From: Ignavibacteriaceae bacterium
GTDB taxonomy: Bacteria; Bacteroidota; Ignavibacteria; Ignavibacteriales; Ignavibacteriaceae
Length of the DNA stretch: 37,062 nucleotides
Reading direction: 5' to 3'
Assembly: GCA_013359345.1 (NCBI GenBank)
Contig: JABWCA010000007.1
Coordinates: 1 to 37,062, forward strand
This document shows positions 2,149-27,343 of the stretch, in pieces. A program made the position numbers and the translations under genes. The notes under the pieces were generated by a model. It searched no databases. It was not told where the DNA came from and worked only from the letters and a program-made list of their open reading frames with translations. Positions within the stretch are counted from its first letter, which is position 1. Every line of letters starts with the position of its first letter.

Positions 2149-5133
2149 ATGAATTTCAATTTAATGAACAGAATAACCGCGGGAATAGTATTCTTTGCTT
2201 CCCTCGTTGTTCTGTTAATGACTGTTCAGCCGACAGTATCATTCTGGGACTGCGGCGAGTTTATAGCAGCTTCATATTCGCTCCAGGTACCGCATCCTCC
2301 GGGAGCCCCCTTCTTTCTGATGCTGGGCAGATTTTTCTCAATGATACCGTTCGGAGAAAATCTTGGTTTCAGGGTAAATATGCTGTCTGTGCTCAGCAGT
2401 GCATTCACAATATTGTTCCTCTATCTGATTATTGTAAAACTGATTCAGAATTACAGAGGAAAAGCTCCTAAAAACCTTCTTGATTCCCTTTCAACCCTTG
2501 CAGCCGGTGCTATCGGCGCACTTTCATTTGCTTACAGCGATACTTTCTGGTACAGTGCAGTTGAAGCAGAAGTTTACGCGGCAAGTACATTTCTTTTTGC
2601 GGCAATCACATATCTGATGATTCTCTGGAATGAAAAGGCAGATAACAAGGATAACGAAAAATATATTCTTCTTATTGCATACCTCACAGGACTTTCAACC
2701 GGCGTGCACCTGATGAGTGTTCTGTCGCTTGTCACGGTTGTGATGGTTATCTGGTTCAGAAAATATATAAATGATGAAGAAGAATTAAAGAGAACCGGTT
2801 ATATTTTTATGGGCCATGCGGCACTTATACTCCTCATGGCAATTTTCATGTGGGGCGGGCAGACCGGAAGCAATATCCCTTCGCCTGAAGAATATCAGGA
2901 CTATGATTCCAAATTTAAGATTTATCTTGTGGTGCTCAGCGCAATCTATATAGGGGTGTTCTGGAAAAAGCTTTTCACAAGAAACTCATTTTATTTCCCT
3001 CTTATAATAGGCGGTGTTGCACTTTTTGCCACTTACCCCGGCGTTGTGAAGTATATTCCCGCATTTATGAAAACCGTTGCAGGCGATAACATAACCATGG
3101 AGCTTGCTCTTATTGCGGTTATGGGTCTGGCACTTGCTGCAGTGGTCAGGTATTCAATCAAAAATAATAAGCCGACTCTTCATCTTGCGGGCATGTCACT
3201 TATCCTGATAATCATAGGGTTTTCAACATACTCGATGGTGATAATCAGGTCAAATATGCAGCCCCCGATGAATGAAAACGAGCCCGATAATTTCACAAGA
3301 CTGGTTTCTTACCTGAATCGTGAACAGTACGGTGACTTCCCGACCTTCAAGAGAAGATATGCCACCGAGCCGCATCAGATGGTTGTGTATCAGAACTACT
3401 CATCAGATCTGGATTTCTTCTGGACCTACCAGATGCACCACATGATGACCAGATATCTGTTCTGGAATTATGCAGGCCGCGAATCATGGTATCAGGACAG
3501 CGGACCAAATATTGCCCCGTTTAATGCCATAGGTAATGCGATATTCAAACCGCTGGGGCTGTCATTTGCAGGTGATACAAAAGATTCACTTTTCGGGATT
3601 CCCCTGCTCCTTGGTTTGCTGGGCATCTACTTCCATTTCAGGCGTGACTGGAAAATGGCTTCTGCATTCATGATTCTCTTTATTTTCATGGGCTATCTCA
3701 CTGCATACTATCAGAACCAGCAGCAGCCGCAGCCCAGAGAAAGAGACTACTTCTATGTGGGTGCATTCTTTGTCTTCTCCATATGGATTGGTATTGCAAT
3801 AAAAGGACTTGCAGAAGTTGCTGAAAAATATATGAAGGAGGGGGCTCTGAGAAATGCAGCCACACTCTTCATCATTCTTGCGGGCATTGTTCTTGTTCCG
3901 GTGAGAATGCTGCAGGCTAATTATTACACTCATGACCGCTCCGGCAATTATGTGCCGTGGGATTACTCATACAATCTGCTTCAGAGCTGCGCGCCAAATG
4001 CAATTCTGTTTACAAACGGTGATAATGACACATTCCCTCTCTGGTATCTTCAGGATGTTGAAGGTGTCAGACGAGATGTCAGAATTGCTAACCTGAGCCT
4101 TCTGAATACCGACTGGTACATAAGACAGCTTAGAAACACCGCTCCTTACGGCTCTGCAAAAGTGAATATGACGCTCACAGATGAGATGATAAATCAGCTC
4201 AGGCCCACCCAGTTTAACGGTGCACAGAAAACTGTTACAATCACCCCTCAGGTGCGCAAGCAGTTTGATGATCTGGTACAGTCGCTCAAAGAAATGAAGA
4301 TGGTGTCAGATTCGACATTTAAGAATGCAACCGAACTCAGTTGGTTTATGCCCGCAGCGGGTCAGACCGGTGATGGCATCAGATACATCAGAGTTCAGGA
4401 TATCATGGTTGAACAGATAGTTAAAAATAACCTTGGTGACCGCCCCATCTATTTTGCAGCCACCTGCAGCCCCGATTCAAAGATAGGGCTTGATGAGTAC
4501 CTCCTTATGGAAGGTATGGCTTTCAGGGTTATGCCGTTCAAGGTTAAATCAGGGCAGCTTGCCGAAGCAGTTAATGAAAACGTGATGTATCAGCAGCTGT
4601 TTAATGAAAACCCCGGATACAGCAAAGATTACAAACCCGGATTCAAGTTCCGCGGCATAGCTGATCCGAAGATTTTCTTTGATGATAACCATGAAAGATT
4701 ATCACAGAATTACAGAAACTCGTTCCTGAGGCTCACCATTCATTATCTTGATCACGGTAAGAATGACATGGCGGTTAAAACTCTTGACGAGATGGATAAA
4801 AAGATACCGGTTTCAAAGATACCGCTTGATCCCATGCTGAGATATCAGGTTGCCGACCTCTATTTCAGAGCGGGTGCTTCTGATAAGTTTAAGACAATAT
4901 CGGCTGATATTGAAAAAGAGATGCTGAAGATGATTGAAAACAACCCCAATGATGTTATGAGGGAATTCAATCCTTATTCAATTCTCACACAGATATATGA
5001 ACGTAACAGGGAGTACAAAAAACTCGTGGGACTCTATGAGCAGCTTATGAGGCTGTATCCGCAGGATCCCAACCTGAAAAACGCATATGATATGTATAAA
5101 ACAATGGCCGATTCGCTGAACACAGGCAAATAA
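2149..5133 (+). CDS. DUF2723 (GT117) membrane glycosyltransferase, protein O-mannosyltransferase-like
   Basis: This 994-residue polytopic inner-membrane protein belongs to the DUF2723 family, glycosyltransferase family GT117 with a GT-C fold. The eukaryotic relative TMEM260 is a protein O-mannosyltransferase. The family signature is near the N terminus: after the first membrane helix comes FWDCGEFIAAS with acidic residues D34 and E37 where GT-C enzymes place the catalytic Asp, followed by VPHPPGAPFFLMLGR. Many hydrophobic helices fill roughly residues 10-590, including a second signature QPQPRERDYFYVGAF. The remaining 400 residues are soluble, with a GDNDTFPLWYLQ motif and a helical TPR-like end. 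Together these suggest a lipid-linked sugar donor used on periplasmic or secreted proteins; donor and acceptor are inference. It follows the 76-residue gene by 19 bp and is closed by a strong terminator. Confidence 0.85.
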   Translation: MNFNLMNRITAGIVFFASLVVLLMTVQPTVSFWDCGEFIAASYSLQVPHPPGAPFFLMLGRFFSMIPFGENLGFRVNMLSVLSSAFTILFLYLIIVKLIQNYRGKAPKNLLDSLSTLAAGAIGALSFAYSDTFWYSAVEAEVYAASTFLFAAITYLMILWNEKADNKDNEKYILLIAYLTGLSTGVHLMSVLSLVTVVMVIWFRKYINDEEELKRTGYIFMGHAALILLMAIFMWGGQTGSNIPSPEEYQDYDSKFKIYLVVLSAIYIGVFWKKLFTRNSFYFPLIIGGVALFATYPGVVKYIPAFMKTVAGDNITMELALIAVMGLALAAVVRYSIKNNKPTLHLAGMSLILIIIGFSTYSMVIIRSNMQPPMNENEPDNFTRLVSYLNREQYGDFPTFKRRYATEPHQMVVYQNYSSDLDFFWTYQMHHMMTRYLFWNYAGRESWYQDSGPNIAPFNAIGNAIFKPLGLSFAGDTKDSLFGIPLLLGLLGIYFHFRRDWKMASAFMILFIFMGYLTAYYQNQQQPQPRERDYFYVGAFFVFSIWIGIAIKGLAEVAEKYMKEGALRNAATLFIILAGIVLVPVRMLQANYYTHDRSGNYVPWDYSYNLLQSCAPNAILFTNGDNDTFPLWYLQDVEGVRRDVRIANLSLLNTDWYIRQLRNTAPYGSAKVNMTLTDEMINQLRPTQFNGAQKTVTITPQVRKQFDDLVQSLKEMKMVSDSTFKNATELSWFMPAAGQTGDGIRYIRVQDIMVEQIVKNNLGDRPIYFAATCSPDSKIGLDEYLLMEGMAFRVMPFKVKSGQLAEAVNENVMYQQLFNENPGYSKDYKPGFKFRGIADPKIFFDDNHERLSQNYRNSFLRLTIHYLDHGKNDMAVKTLDEMDKKIPVSKIPLDPMLRYQVADLYFRAGASDKFKTISADIEKEMLKMIENNPNDVMREFNPYSILTQIYERNREYKKLVGLYEQLMRLYPQDPNLKNAYDMYKTMADSLNTGK

Positions 5134-22476: not shown

Positions 22477-22803
22477 ATGGATCTGAAGAGTGCTGCTGCC
22501 GTGCTGGCAGAAGATATTTCCTCTCTTAAAGATGAAGTCAGATACAAAAATGAACTTGCCCGCCTTGCTGCGGCATTTGCCGGTAATATCTCTGCCGCTT
22601 TCTCTGCAGGGCACCCCGGATCTGTGATGCAGTTTCTGCAGAATGCAAAACATACACTAAATGAAGCCGGGGCTTTAATACAGGAAAAAAGTACAGCGGA
22701 TCCGGCTGAGAATGATGATCTGGCCAGGATTGAGGAGTTGCTCTCAATCTGCAGAAAGAGTCTTTACTCAGAAATTAAACGCACCGCTTTGCACATTTGC
22801 TGA
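22477..22803 (+). CDS. Small helical hypothetical protein
   Basis: I do not recognise this 108-residue protein. It is rich in Ala, Leu, Glu and Lys and appears almost wholly helical (LKSAAAVLAEDISSLKDEV, AARIEELLSI-like stretch near the end), with no signal peptide. The ATG at 22477 is preferred; a GTG at 22450 in the same frame would add nine basic residues. The end is abrupt (ALHIC), and the +1 frame stays open past that point for about 25 codons (FADLLQKKTDTDYKYF), so a frameshift of a longer protein is possible. The opposite-strand ORF over this stretch looks like a shadow. It lies between prfA and the phosphodiesterase gene. Confidence 0.45.
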   Translation: MDLKSAAAVLAEDISSLKDEVRYKNELARLAAAFAGNISAAFSAGHPGSVMQFLQNAKHTLNEAGALIQEKSTADPAENDDLARIEELLSICRKSLYSEIKRTALHIC

Positions 22804-22879
22804 TTTACTACAGAAGAAAACAGACACAGATTATAAATATTTTATACTTTCTTTAACTTACTGGATAAAGATCTCATTC

Positions 22880-24097
22880 ATGAAAAAACTTTTCGGTATT
22901 TTACTGCTCCTTAACTTTACGTTATTTTCTCAACCCAATTATACAATTCTGATTTCTTTTGACGGCTTCAGGCATGATTACATGGAGAGGGGTCTTACCC
23001 CCACTCTTAAAGAGATTGAAAAAAACGGAGTGAGAGCTGCCTCTCTGCGGCCTGTTTATCCTTCCAAAACTTTTCCTAATCATTACTCCATTATCACCGG
23101 TTTGTATCCTGAGAATCATGGCATTATAGCTAACACCTTTTACGATCCCCAGACCGATGAAACCTACACCATAGGGGATTCAACCAAGGTAACAAATGCA
23201 AAATGGTATACGGGAGAAGCATTCTGGGAAACAGCTCAGCGCAACGGTATCATAGCTGCAAGCTATTTCTGGCCGGGCTCGGAAGTTAAACTGGATTACA
23301 GACGCCCCAGATATTATATGAAGTACGATCATGACAGACCATATAAAACCCGCGTTGACGGCGTGATTGACTGGCTCAAACTGCCGTATAGTGAGCGGCC
23401 AAGGTTTATCACACTTTATTTTGACGCTGCCGATAGTTACGGCCATAATTACGGACCAGATTCAGACAGCCTGAACCATGCCATCGGTATTCTTGACCGG
23501 ATCACCTCATATCTTCTGAGCAGGCTCCCGGAAACCGGTATTGAAGACTCGGTAAACCTGATATTTGTCTCAGATCACGGAATGACACAGGTTGATACCA
23601 GCAAATATATTGATGTGGAACAGATTATCGGGAATGAATATAAAGTTAAATTCTGGAACTGGGGGACTTTCGTATTAATTCAGCCCGAAAAAGACCAGAC
23701 CGAGGCTGTTTATAAGAAACTTAAACAAAACGAAAAGCACTTCAAATCATACAGAAAAGATGAGATACCCGATTTTTACCATTTCTCATCAAGTCCGCTG
23801 CTTTCTGATATAATCCTTGTCAGTGATCTCGGCTGGGAAATAGGGACCACCGCACACCGCAAGCGGTATATAAAGTGGAATGCCCACGGTAACCACGGTT
23901 TTGAAAAAGACCAGCTTGATATGCATGGTTTCTTCCTGGCCGCAGGCCCTGATTTCCGCAAAGGATACAAAACGGGAACCCTCTGGAACATTGACATCTA
24001 TCCCCTCCTCTGTGAAATCTTCGGCATCCCCGTCAGATCAAATATAGACGGCCGGGCAGAGAGGATAAGGTTTTTACTCACTAAAAATGCTTTTTAG
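22880..24097 (+). CDS. Exported NPP-type phosphodiesterase (alkaline phosphatase superfamily)
   Basis: This 405-residue protein starts at ATG 22880 with a signal peptide (MKKLFGILLLLNFTLFSQ). It belongs to the nucleotide pyrophosphatase/phosphodiesterase family (PF01663), zinc enzymes that split phosphodiester bonds in the periplasm or at the surface. The metal ligand D28 is in ISFDGFRHDY and the nucleophile T64 is in YPSKTFPNHYS. Further metal ligands are in YFDAADSYGHNYG, FVSDHGM and GNHGFEKD. The first in-frame start lies 168 bp upstream at 22712, but that extension has no signal sequence and overlaps the previous gene. Its TAG stop is part of the first heptad of the repeat block at 24092, so the gene directly abuts the IVP cassette. 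Confidence 0.88.
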   Translation: MKKLFGILLLLNFTLFSQPNYTILISFDGFRHDYMERGLTPTLKEIEKNGVRAASLRPVYPSKTFPNHYSIITGLYPENHGIIANTFYDPQTDETYTIGDSTKVTNAKWYTGEAFWETAQRNGIIAASYFWPGSEVKLDYRRPRYYMKYDHDRPYKTRVDGVIDWLKLPYSERPRFITLYFDAADSYGHNYGPDSDSLNHAIGILDRITSYLLSRLPETGIEDSVNLIFVSDHGMTQVDTSKYIDVEQIIGNEYKVKFWNWGTFVLIQPEKDQTEAVYKKLKQNEKHFKSYRKDEIPDFYHFSSSPLLSDIILVSDLGWEIGTTAHRKRYIKWNAHGNHGFEKDQLDMHGFFLAAGPDFRKGYKTGTLWNIDIYPLLCEIFGIPVRSNIDGRAERIRFLLTKNAF

Positions 24098-24126
24098 GGG
24101 TTTAGGATTTAGGGTTTAGGTTTTAG
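24092..24126 (+). repeat. Telomere-like heptad repeat, left copy (TTTAGGG type)
   Basis: Five imperfect heptads run in tandem: TTTTAGG, GGTTTAG, GATTTAG, GGTTTAG, GTTTTAG. The 22 bp at 24098-24119 occur again as an exact reverse complement at 24900-24921. The block begins inside the stop codon of the phosphodiesterase gene. Confidence 0.92.
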
Positions 24127-24309
24127 AGCAGCATAAACGTTGTGATAATAATCAGTTATTCCAGGTAAACATCAATAATTTATATCAGGGTATTCAGTTT
24201 TTCAACTGTATATTTATAGATTAAAGCAGCTAAATTGGGGCGAATGGTTGAGTTTCTTGTAACTTTTCACCATCTTTAAAATTGTGATTTTATAATAGTA
24301 ACTTTTGAA

Positions 24310-24663
24310 ATGAAAGATTTTACTGAACTTGAAGTATGGATAAAATCCAGAAAACTTGCAAACATTATATACAGTCTTAGTAAAGGGTTCCCCGGATCAG
24401 AGATACATGGATTAACTCTTCAGATCAGAAGAGCGGCAATTTCTGTTCCCTCGAATATAGCTGAGGGGGTTGGAAGGAACACGAAAAAAGATACACTCCA
24501 GTTTCTTTATATCGCGAGAGGATCTTTGTTTGAGCTGGAGACTCAGATCTATCTTGCGTTCGATCAGAACTTCATTAAAGATGAACACCTTAAATCATCT
24601 CTTGAGGAAGTAAGACACTGCAAAAGGCTATTGAACGGATTTATAAATTATTATCAGGACTGA
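24310..24663 (+). CDS. Four-helix-bundle protein of the 23S rRNA intervening-sequence (IVP/S23) family
   Basis: This 117-residue protein is a clear member of the IVP/S23 family (PF05635). It has the signature order FTELEVWIKSRKLANIIY, FPGSEIHGLTLQIRRAAIS, VPSNIAEGVGRNTKK, FLYIARGSLFELETQIYLA and a closing helix, at the usual family length. Relatives are encoded inside 23S rRNA intervening sequences (for example in Leptospira and Coxiella), and the Avd protein of diversity-generating retroelements shares the fold and binds nucleic acid. No reverse transcriptase, variable gene or rRNA is in this window. The gene sits alone between inverted heptad repeats. Its function here is unknown; RNA or DNA binding is the best guess. 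Confidence 0.93.
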   Translation: MKDFTELEVWIKSRKLANIIYSLSKGFPGSEIHGLTLQIRRAAISVPSNIAEGVGRNTKKDTLQFLYIARGSLFELETQIYLAFDQNFIKDEHLKSSLEEVRHCKRLLNGFINYYQD

Positions 24664-24899
24664 TCATCGTTAATGCAACCCGTAATGATGAAGAGATTTT
24701 TTTGTTATTTTCAAGATCATGAAAACTGAAACTATTATAATTCTCGATAAGTTATTAATCTGAATATCAGATAACTATTGTTCAATAATCATATTTTCGG
24801 ATATTCATCACAAGACAAAAATTATACACAATCAGGACATAAAAATTATTATTCATAGCATGGCGGGATTATTCTCGGCAATAAATTGACTATTTCGGA

Positions 24900-24930
24900 C
24901 TAAACCCTAAATCCTAAACCCTAAACCCTA
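24900..24930 (-). repeat. Telomere-like heptad repeat, right copy (inverted)
   Basis: This block is the reverse complement of the left copy: 24900-24921 matches 24098-24119 exactly over 22 bp and a further heptad extends it to 24930. It ends 16 bp before the TTG start of the amylase gene, just upstream of the GGAG ribosome site. Confidence 0.92.
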
Positions 24931-24946: not shown

Positions 24947-27343
24947 TTGAAACTACTAAAATACCTGACGATATCACTATTGCTGATGAGCAGTGCAGTA
25001 ATGCCTCAGAAAATTAAAGATCTGATAAAGCCGCTTAATGTTCAGACCGGCAAGGAAACAAAGTTCATCATAAGCGATGTGTTTTACATTAAAGGCGGGT
25101 ACAGCAGCCTTGCAATCAAAGAAAATCCGAGAGTGAAGGCTCAGTTTTCATTGAAGGATTCTGTGCTGAGTGTTACTCCTTCTCAGGATGCACGCGCCTA
25201 TGAACTCCTTAATTTTAATCTGAACGGAGAAGAATATGTGATTCCGCTTCAGGTTAAAAAGCCCGATTATTACAGATTTGAATTCCATGCAGAAAAAGAG
25301 TATAAAGATGTTTTTATAATCGGGAGTTTTAACGGCTGGAACAGAAGCGGTGACCGCATGACCGACCCTGAGGGTGACGGAATCTTTACCGCTGACATTG
25401 CACTCGATCCCGGAAGATATGAATATAAGTTTTATGCTGACGGTCAGGAAATTGTTGACAAAAGAAATGACTATCAGGTACCGAACGGAATGGGCGACTT
25501 CAACTCGGTTATTGTTATTACTAAAGAAGGCGTGCCCGAGCTTTTCCTCCAGATAATGGAAATGAAAGACCTGGGGGATGAGATCGCAGTTGAATATTAC
25601 TATAAGGCGAACTTCCCAGCAGATATTGACACACTTGCAAAAATTGTTGCCCTCCTTGATAACAAACAGCTCGGAATGGAGAGACTTCAGTGGGGTGAGT
25701 ATTTCGGGTTTAAGGTGCTGCTCAAAAAATCTGAACTTAAGGGAGAAAAGCATCTCCGGGTTTCAGCGCTTTTTAATGATTTCAGAATGGTATCGAATAC
25801 CCAGCAGACACTGTTTATTGACGGCCAACCAGCAGGTGCTCCCGGCGTTAAGCAAACATGGTATGACGGTATAATTTATTCGCTGATGATTGACCGCTTC
25901 AATGATGGTGACAAGTCTCTCAATAACCCTATTAAGCATGACTCCCTTTTCCTCCCGGCAAATTACAACGGCGGAGATTTCCAGGGAATTATCGACAAAC
26001 TGAACGAAGGGTATTTCAGCGATCTCGGAATTAACACTATATGGGTATCCCCGGTTTATGATAATCCGAATGAGGCTTTCAGAGAGTTCCCCCCGCCGTA
26101 TCACTATTACTCAGGGTACCATGGCTACTGGCCGATCGATTTTACAAAGACCGAAGAAAAGTTCGGTTCAATGGAAAAGCTTAAGGAACTGGTTCAGACA
26201 GCTCACTCCAAAGGGATAAAAGTGCTGCTTGATTTTGTATCTCATCATACTCATGAACAGCACCCTAAGTTTAAGGAACACAGAGAATGGTTTGGAGTGC
26301 TTGATCTCCCTGATGGCCGAAAAAATCTCAGACTCTGGGATGAGTACCGACTCTCAACATGGTTTGAACCTTATCTCCCGTCATTTGATTTCACAAAGGC
26401 TCCCGCTGCAATAGAATATGTTTCAGAGAATGCTCTCTGGTGGCTTGAGCAGACAGGCGCAGACGGATTCAGGCATGATGCAGTTAAGCACGTACCAAAT
26501 GAATTCTGGAGAACCCTTACTGCCAAACTGAAAGACAAATACCAGGATGAAGGCAAAGAAGTTTATCAGATAGGGGAAACCTTTGGCGGTTATGACCTTA
26601 TAAGTTCTTATGTGACGAATGGTCAGCTTGAATCACAGTTCAACTTCAATCTTTTTGACGTTGCCATTCAGGTGTTTATTGACAGCACCCAGTCGTTTGA
26701 GATTCTGGCCAGCGAGTTTGACCGCACTTATCATTATTACGGACCCATGCATCTTATGGGTAACATTATGGACAGCCATGACAAGATCAGATATATGGCA
26801 TATGCTGACGGTGATCTTGTGATTAATCAGGGTGATGCAAACATGATTGCCTGGAATAATCCCCCTAAAGTTGACAATCTTTCAAGCTATGCAAAAGCAC
26901 AGTTGTACCTGGCTTACATGTTCACGATTCCCGGTCTCCCCGTTATTTACTACGGATCTGAATTCGGAATGACAGGAGCGGCAGATCCTGATAACAGAAG
27001 GATGATGCGTTTCGGTAAAGATCTCAACGATACTGAAAAAGGGATGATGGAAAATGTGAAGAAGCTGGTAAAACTGAGGAATGAGGCTTCGGCATTAAGA
27101 TACGGTGACCTGATGCCTGTGCATATTGAAAAAGATATCCTCGGGTATATCCGTTCCGATCTTAACGGAAGATATCTTGTTGTTCTCAACAAAGGCAGCC
27201 GGCCGGCTGAGAAAAAAATATATGTCCCCTCCGTTTACGGGTACACTCTCACTGATGTATTTACAGATAAAAGAGTATCAGTGTATGATCCTGTAAAGCT
27301 TGATGCTTACGGCTACAGAATCTTTAAGATCACAGCTAATTAG
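24947..27343 (+). CDS. Secreted GH13 alpha-amylase family enzyme (neopullulanase/cyclomaltodextrinase-like) with CBM48-like domain
   Basis: This 798-residue enzyme cleaves alpha-glucans. It starts with TTG at 24947 after a GGAG ribosome site; the N terminus is a signal peptide (MKLLKYLTISLLLMSSAVMP). Residues about 115-195 form a CBM48/AMPK-type glycogen-binding fold (VFIIGSFNGWNRSGDRM, then GRYEYKFYADGQ). The GH13 barrel starts near residue 305 and carries all four conserved regions: DFVSHH at 429-434, DGFRHDAV with nucleophile D511, IGETFGGYD with acid/base E544, and MDSHD with H611/D612. A beta-sandwich C domain ends the protein. It should work in the periplasm or outside on starch, glycogen or their oligomers. 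It lies between the IVP cassette and the ATPase gene and has a long terminator downstream. Confidence 0.92.
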   Translation: MKLLKYLTISLLLMSSAVMPQKIKDLIKPLNVQTGKETKFIISDVFYIKGGYSSLAIKENPRVKAQFSLKDSVLSVTPSQDARAYELLNFNLNGEEYVIPLQVKKPDYYRFEFHAEKEYKDVFIIGSFNGWNRSGDRMTDPEGDGIFTADIALDPGRYEYKFYADGQEIVDKRNDYQVPNGMGDFNSVIVITKEGVPELFLQIMEMKDLGDEIAVEYYYKANFPADIDTLAKIVALLDNKQLGMERLQWGEYFGFKVLLKKSELKGEKHLRVSALFNDFRMVSNTQQTLFIDGQPAGAPGVKQTWYDGIIYSLMIDRFNDGDKSLNNPIKHDSLFLPANYNGGDFQGIIDKLNEGYFSDLGINTIWVSPVYDNPNEAFREFPPPYHYYSGYHGYWPIDFTKTEEKFGSMEKLKELVQTAHSKGIKVLLDFVSHHTHEQHPKFKEHREWFGVLDLPDGRKNLRLWDEYRLSTWFEPYLPSFDFTKAPAAIEYVSENALWWLEQTGADGFRHDAVKHVPNEFWRTLTAKLKDKYQDEGKEVYQIGETFGGYDLISSYVTNGQLESQFNFNLFDVAIQVFIDSTQSFEILASEFDRTYHYYGPMHLMGNIMDSHDKIRYMAYADGDLVINQGDANMIAWNNPPKVDNLSSYAKAQLYLAYMFTIPGLPVIYYGSEFGMTGAADPDNRRMMRFGKDLNDTEKGMMENVKKLVKLRNEASALRYGDLMPVHIEKDILGYIRSDLNGRYLVVLNKGSRPAEKKIYVPSVYGYTLTDVFTDKRVSVYDPVKLDAYGYRIFKITAN

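Follow-up and report, generated by a model that had tools for sequence, protein, structure and literature searches.

What is the role of an IVP/S23 gene that lies between two protein-coding genes and is enclosed by inverted arrays of a short tandem repeat? IVP genes occur in intervening sequences (IVSs) of 23S rRNA; that of Coxiella burnetii holds an S23p/IVP open reading frame (ORF), measures 428 to 444 nt, and has a 28-bp stem (PMC4990558). Transposition of 23S rRNA IVSs was proposed long ago, and they have long been suspected of being mobile elements or remnants of transposition; for decades, the IVP genes in them have been described as unclear in function and origin (PMC4990558). The gene that raises the question here was found in a 37,062-nt stretch of DNA of an Ignavibacteriaceae bacterium, the whole of which was analyzed and is referred to below as the window.

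An IVP gene between inverted heptad arrays

The features of the unit and of the genes at its borders are given in Table 1.

Table 1. Positions within the window of the IVP unit and its bordering genes
Feature	Position	Strand	Remark
Type I phosphodiesterase / nucleotide pyrophosphatase family gene (Phosphodiest)	22712..24097	+	left border, outside the element
Left (5') arm, TTTAGG[G/A/T] heptad array	24092..24130	+	overlaps the upstream phosphodiesterase stop codon
GCAGCATAA tail adjoining the left array	24128..24136	+	also in dispersed host TTTAGGG arrays (contigs C189 and C293)
IVP gene, 117 aa, PF05635 / TIGR02436 four-helix bundle	24310..24663	+	sole gene between the arms
Right (3') arm, the heptad array inverted, CTAAACCCTAAATCCTAAACCCTAAACCCTA	24900..24930	-	
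Alpha-amylase family gene (Alpha-amylase match)	24947..27343	+	right border, outside the element

Both arms are built of 7-bp units and share a perfect inverted repeat of 22 nt (24098-24119 and 24900-24921), with a wider pairing of 29 nt at 90% (24098-24126 and 24900-24928). The left array overlaps the TAG stop codon of the phosphodiesterase gene (24095-24097), and the right array ends, at 24930, 16 bp 5' of the TTG start codon of the amylase gene at 24947; a single intergenic gap is filled by the inverted TTTAGG[G/A] arrays and the IVP gene, which is the only substantial coding-strand ORF inside the unit. The original prediction, made from the sequence alone, had claimed a 22-bp perfect heptad repeat bounding an IVP gene, this gene as the only one of the unit, a unit that fills one gap from the phosphodiesterase stop codon to 16 bp before the amylase gene, and a locus without rRNA. 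All of these claims held, the neighbors being the phosphodiesterase and amylase genes.

Compared to dinucleotide shuffles of the flanks (n = 500), with a mean pairing score of 9.1 and a maximum of 16, the arms scored 22, and no second inverted repeat with a score of at least 16 within 1.5 kb was found anywhere in the 37-kb window. Sites resembling TTTAGGGTTTAG numbered 6 in the window versus 0.22 expected and were confined to the two arms. As for the earlier suggestion that the repeats could pair as an RNA stem, folding of the whole unit predicted a structure in which the arms are paired (z = -3.3 versus shuffles), with the role of such an RNA remaining an inference. Whether relatives have an empty phosphodiesterase-amylase gap, which had been proposed as a check, could not be assessed, since the two genes adjoin each other in none of the relatives examined; the amylase gene itself is present there.

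The IVP protein of the window matches PF05635 with an E value of 4.5e-36 and also matches TIGR02436. Its AlphaFold model (mean pLDDT of 97) best fits 2GSC (TM of 0.95) and 2RLD, with a weaker match, at a TM of about 0.8, to DGR Avd (4DWL) and a DGR RNP (8UB7). IVP and DGR Avd have the same fold, and homology between PF05635 and Avd was proposed earlier (PMC10053308), but the IVP cassette has neither a reverse transcriptase nor a template/variable (TR/VR) repeat pair. A known catalytic motif is absent from IVP, and the Xanthomonas IVP, whose structure has been solved, forms a homopentamer (PMC4990558). The median dN/dS of IVP coding sequences was 0.105; IVP is therefore a working protein, maintained by purifying selection.

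Arms and repeat units of other IVP genes

IVP genes were present in 232 of 296 sampled genomes of the phylum, often with 5 to 15 in each. To score arms, we compared the two 200-bp flanks of a gene for their best inverted match without gaps (+1 per match, -2 per mismatch), a score of at least 13 being a pass. In genomes of the same family or order, 64 of 93 IVP genes passed, compared to 3 of 900 positions taken from the same loci; with right flanks swapped between IVP genes, 1 of 92 passed, and a stricter cutoff of at least 15 was reached by 50 of 93 IVP genes and by 0 of 900 positions. Controls for gene type gave a similar picture: arms were present at 69 of 93 IVP genes, compared to 5 of 276 genes of other kinds and 2 of 55 that were short and isolated. 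One control gene with a strong inverted repeat (L080:7160) lies between two copies of a different, non-heptad repeat. Altogether, the architecture of arm, IVP gene, and inverted arm is strongly enriched at IVP genes and nearly absent elsewhere.

This architecture is not limited to relatives of the host. One genome per species was scanned across phyla, which yielded 80 named loci, 79 of them tested, from Bacteroidota, Planctomycetes, Clostridia, Omnitrophica, Anaerolineae, Alpha- and Betaproteobacteria, Cloacimonadota, and others; by the same test, 48 of 79 passed versus 14 of 790 controls. All 30 IVP genes of seven Flavobacterium genomes had arms at a looser cutoff of 11, as did all six IVP loci from a plasmid collection (five cyanobacterial and one from Riemerella). 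In an unbiased 400 kb of one complete genome, both tandem-heptad foldbacks detected enclose IVP genes, and two more heptad arrays are solitary. Clear paired arms are missing at the cutoff for about 25 to 40% of IVP genes. The layout, in which each element has its own repeat, thus surrounds most IVP genes tested across many bacterial phyla, and the earlier claim of a free-standing, IVS-like element is supported and extends well beyond the window. At two loci of relatives (L107 in G034 and L134 in G026), up to four IVP genes are clustered in 7 to 12 kb, so that hot spots or arrays of elements are possible.

The repeat unit varies between elements, and the two arms of any one element agree. Among 103 arms with a score of at least 14, the best repeat lag was 7 in 47, 14 in 24, and 8 in 23 (94 of 103 together), and G exceeded C, read toward the gene, in 91 of 99 arms. 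The host genome itself (G000, an assembly of 454 contigs) has three IVP genes, each adjoining a tandem array of a different unit, i.e., TTTAGGG in the window, a ATCAGTGAC-like unit on contig C240, and ACAGGAG on contig C172, which stops before any right arm could appear. When the arms of 17 orthologues were matched with each other, the inverted match between an element's own arms averaged 15.6, compared to 10.6 across elements, a difference reached in none of 20000 permutations; both arms change in step among orthologues, with the caveat that this test was not corrected for relatedness. Furthermore, close IVP relatives often carry the same arm unit: in a comparison of loci without flank similarity detectable by nucleotide search, a unit was shared by 33% of IVP pairs with at least 60% identity versus 0.2% of pairs below 30%, some of these pairs having a common neighbor gene at the protein level. 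At one locus of a relative (L114 of G024, about 4000-5020), the arms differ, one being a plain array of heptads and the other about five repeats of a 39-bp unit containing the same heptads; the two arms can therefore grow differently.

TTTAGGG as a telomere-like or otherwise special sequence, the flavor given to it in the original prediction, was considered and ruled out, as other elements have other units of 7 to 8 bp. The essential feature is the pair of foldback short-tandem arms around an IVP gene, and the TTTAGGG sequence is incidental.

Filled and empty gaps and dispersed foldbacks

Orthologous gaps with and without an element were found in Flavobacteriaceae, in an operon with the order homocysteine S-methyltransferase, B12 methionine synthase, and MTHFR. 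Xanthomarina and Winogradskyella have an IVP gene between the homocysteine S-methyltransferase and methionine synthase genes, and Aequorivita has one in that upstream gap too, adjoining one extra gene; the methionine synthase-MTHFR (metH|metF) gap measures 0 to 2 bp in Xanthomarina and Aequorivita. In Flavobacterium (L165, L407, and L408), a related IVP with GTTGATR-type arms occupies the metH|metF gap, the element beginning straight after the stop codon and ending straight before the start codon. No target-site duplication was seen by eye at the metH|metF junctions, where the borders are blurred by repeat ends.

A second Flavobacterium gap holds the element in 19 loci and measures 21 to 57 bp in five other genomes; in L280, the same gap has a distantly related IVP with different arms, and in further Flavobacterium species, it has foldback-like remnants without IVP. 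A foldback devoid of IVP also lies between two co-directional genes in Flavobacterium G344 (L293, about 1965-2105), at a site that measures about 140 bp in seven species but 18 bp in G113 and G311, two others. Filled, empty, and differently filled orthologous gaps therefore exist, and the outcome that would have counted against the original prediction, i.e., all relatives sharing a filled gap with no empty sites, was not met, given the empty and precisely filled gaps of Flavobacteriaceae. The cassettes behave like insertions; their mobility is an inference, as no transposition was observed and one genome per species was compared. Near-identical IVP copies at different sites were not found among 95 loci of relatives, the top nucleotide identity being 81%, and the vertical persistence of the Flavobacterium copy has been long, which also fits a useful resident cassette.

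Arrays without IVP genes were examined in the host and in Flavobacterium. TTTAGGG arrays gave 41 matches at about a dozen places of the host genome versus 8 for a reversed control pattern, and at least eight of these places are outside the window, most without IVP. On contig C189 (L303, about 3080-3828), a 44-bp minisatellite made of TTTAGGG-like heptads and GGAGCAGCATAAGTGGA faces inverted single copies, without IVP, and extends to the contig end. Arrays of TTTAGGG stand at the ends of host contigs C391, C451, C245, and C189 (L308, L309, L306, and L303), and as contigs start or end in them, these repeats seem to break the assembly. Other short tandem families of the host are of the TTCGATG and CGTTGCA types (L305, around 2590-2850, and L307, around 1616-2003, on C293 and C229); those on C229 are inverted relative to each other at a distance of 340 nt, and no IVP was found between them.

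In four Flavobacterium genomes, the unit CAAAGGTN occurs 166 to 239 times versus 0 to 3 for the control, and in G228 and G281, two genomes without that element, AAAGGTTC arrays do not exceed background. G232 contains at least 63 arrays; among those analyzed, 10 neighboring pairs stand head to head and none in the opposite arrangement, and one of the 10 encloses the IVP gene. Miniature foldbacks without IVP, built of the same unit as the IVP element, are hence dispersed through genomes. The original prediction would also have been refuted by the same repeats being common in gaps without IVP genes, and this was literally met in the host genome; because the IVP-less copies of Flavobacterium are foldbacks with the unit of the IVP element, we interpret them as derivatives and not as evidence that refutes the prediction.

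A proposed class of IVP foldback elements

We propose that the unit of the window belongs to a widespread class of small insertion elements, for which we use the name IVP foldback elements; we consider this reading likely, its inferred mechanism included. Such an element would comprise an arm, an IVP gene, and the inverted arm, about 0.5 to 0.8 kb in all, each arm being a short array of 7- to 8-bp tandem units. IVP would recognize its own arm repeats, most likely as a hairpin of RNA or single-stranded DNA (ssDNA), and would protect or present this hairpin. Given that a solved homologue is a pentamer and that IVP shares its fold with Avd, which acts within a reverse-transcriptase ribonucleoprotein, it is plausible that a ring of IVP accommodates several repeat units. 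Spread into intercistronic gaps would be rare and would depend on an enzyme supplied in trans, whose identity is unknown, and IVP-less foldbacks would be mobilized derivatives. One candidate for this helper is a Y1 (HUH) transposase that acts on hairpins; Y1_Tnp is encoded in all nine genomes checked, which does not discriminate, and no link to the arms has been shown. Dependence on a reverse transcriptase was ruled out, since an RVT_1 match is absent from 6 of 9 genomes checked. IVP-rich complete genomes without RVT_1 are G001, G006, G018, G232, and G336, and the host genome has one distant reverse transcriptase on another contig; a resident RVT_1 enzyme is not needed for persistence of the elements.

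The strongest rival, which we regard as unlikely, is a nonmobile regulatory cassette, in which the arms form an intercistronic RNA hairpin processed by RNase III or an enzyme like it, IVP binds RNA and regulates both its own transcript and its neighbors, and differently filled gaps reflect ordinary horizontal transfer and recombination. In its favor, the arms are able to pair in a transcript, the usual site is between genes (e.g., metH/metF, cas6/cas4, or an iscA-like gene and sufB), RNase III cuts the stems of Coxiella IVSs (PMC4990558), and IVP is under purifying selection. Against it stand the precise stop-to-start insertion in one lineage, with the neighboring gap of the same operon used in another, the different IVP element in the same gap of L280, and the presence in a single genome of dozens of IVP-less foldbacks built of the element's unit; given these observations, a regulatory cassette would need a means of dispersal too.

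Still less probable is a scenario in which hairpins came first, i.e., foldbacks resembling the short tandemly repeated repetitive (STRR) sequences of cyanobacteria arose in many gaps through slippage and the correction of quasi-palindromes, with IVP genes as passengers surviving in their loops. Some genomes have many IVP-less arrays, 7-bp STRR hairpins of cyanobacteria are on record without IVP genes (PMC2670836), and slippage with fold-back repair would account for the concerted change of arms. However, the tandem foldbacks detected in 400 kb of a complete genome hold IVP and not other genes, other genes are hardly ever found in such loops (5 of 276), the unit goes with the IVP sequence at loci that are unrelated, and AAAGGTTC arrays do not rise above background where that element is absent. 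Chance, or an ordinary terminator-like inverted repeat beside an unrelated small gene, can be all but dismissed: inverted repeats are common between bacterial genes, but the observed score of 22 exceeds the shuffle maximum of 16, arms accompany 69% of IVP genes versus 0.3% of control positions, and a 7-bp periodicity with a mirrored unit is not accounted for.

IVP foldback elements, as proposed here, resemble 23S rRNA IVSs in protein family, in size, and in complementary termini that close a stem around the ORF. They differ in that the window unit lies between protein-coding genes, has ends made of tandem 7- to 8-bp arrays, and is multicopy with IVP-less miniatures; the window unit, not being in rRNA, is therefore not an IVS. 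That IVP genes lie within hidden rRNA was ruled out, as no conserved 23S motif was present in 173 IVP loci (by a check for exact motifs only). Cyanobacterial STRRs are intergenic hairpins of 7-bp repeats between co-directional genes, with unknown function (PMC2670836). The window arms likewise are tandem 7-bp repeats in an intergenic hairpin, with identity to the described STRR families not established; no link of STRRs to IVP was found in the literature, whereas the cyanobacterial plasmid IVP genes checked here do have inverted arrays. Both 23S rRNA IVSs and STRR hairpins seem related to IVP elements.

Comparisons with other systems are looser. Drosophila FB/NOF foldback transposons have long inverted termini of short tandem subrepeats, and noncoding derivatives are common; they have no sequence relation to the IVP element, which lacks a transposase. 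REP/REPIN sequences with RAYT, as well as MITEs, are dispersed noncoding palindromes that originate from, or rely on, a resident element with a single gene (for a survey of REPs, see PMC3733652). The IVP gene differs from RAYT in encoding an Avd-like four-helix bundle and not a Y1 transposase, and the units differ even within one genome. No transposase with the same ends, one criterion for a MITE/IS relationship, was found, and only IVP lay between the arms in the loci read. In Beggiatoaceae, TAACTGA heptads are direct repeats, and the paper describing them does not mention IVP (PMC4679880). No description of arrays flanking IVP genes was found in the open-access literature searched, and the class appears to be undescribed, although an earlier description elsewhere is not excluded.

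IVP genes have also been noted in cas loci, with 18 reported (PMC3936711), and have been listed as CRISPR linked (PMC10910872). On plasmid pPg_01 of Pseudanabaena galeata (L401, 1281-2020), cas6 and cas4 are separated by an IVP gene that has long arrays of the TTAGC type; the CRISPR-linked reports may, tentatively, reflect hitchhiking insertions like this arm-bounded one. In Riemerella anatipestifer (L405, 1409-1980), an arm-bounded IVP cassette lies between an iron-sulfur assembly accessory gene (iscA-like) and sufB. A bolder reading, which in our judgment could as easily be wrong as right, is that IVP foldback elements form a distinct class of bacterial mobile elements and are the source of IVSs, STRR hairpins, and IVP genes of cas operons. 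They would combine a noncatalytic Avd-like pentamer with inverted tandem arms, the unit being specific to each protein lineage, and would move, aided by a helper enzyme, through a hairpin of RNA or ssDNA.

IVP/S23 genes are among the commoner uncharacterized small genes of the phylum and have been known mainly from 23S rRNA. Their common architecture gives them a testable role, i.e., each IVP should recognize its own arm unit. The proposal would also account for the contig breaks at these arrays in the metagenome-assembled genome (MAG) of the host, and it offers one origin for rRNA intervening sequences, STRR hairpins, and the IVP genes of cas loci.
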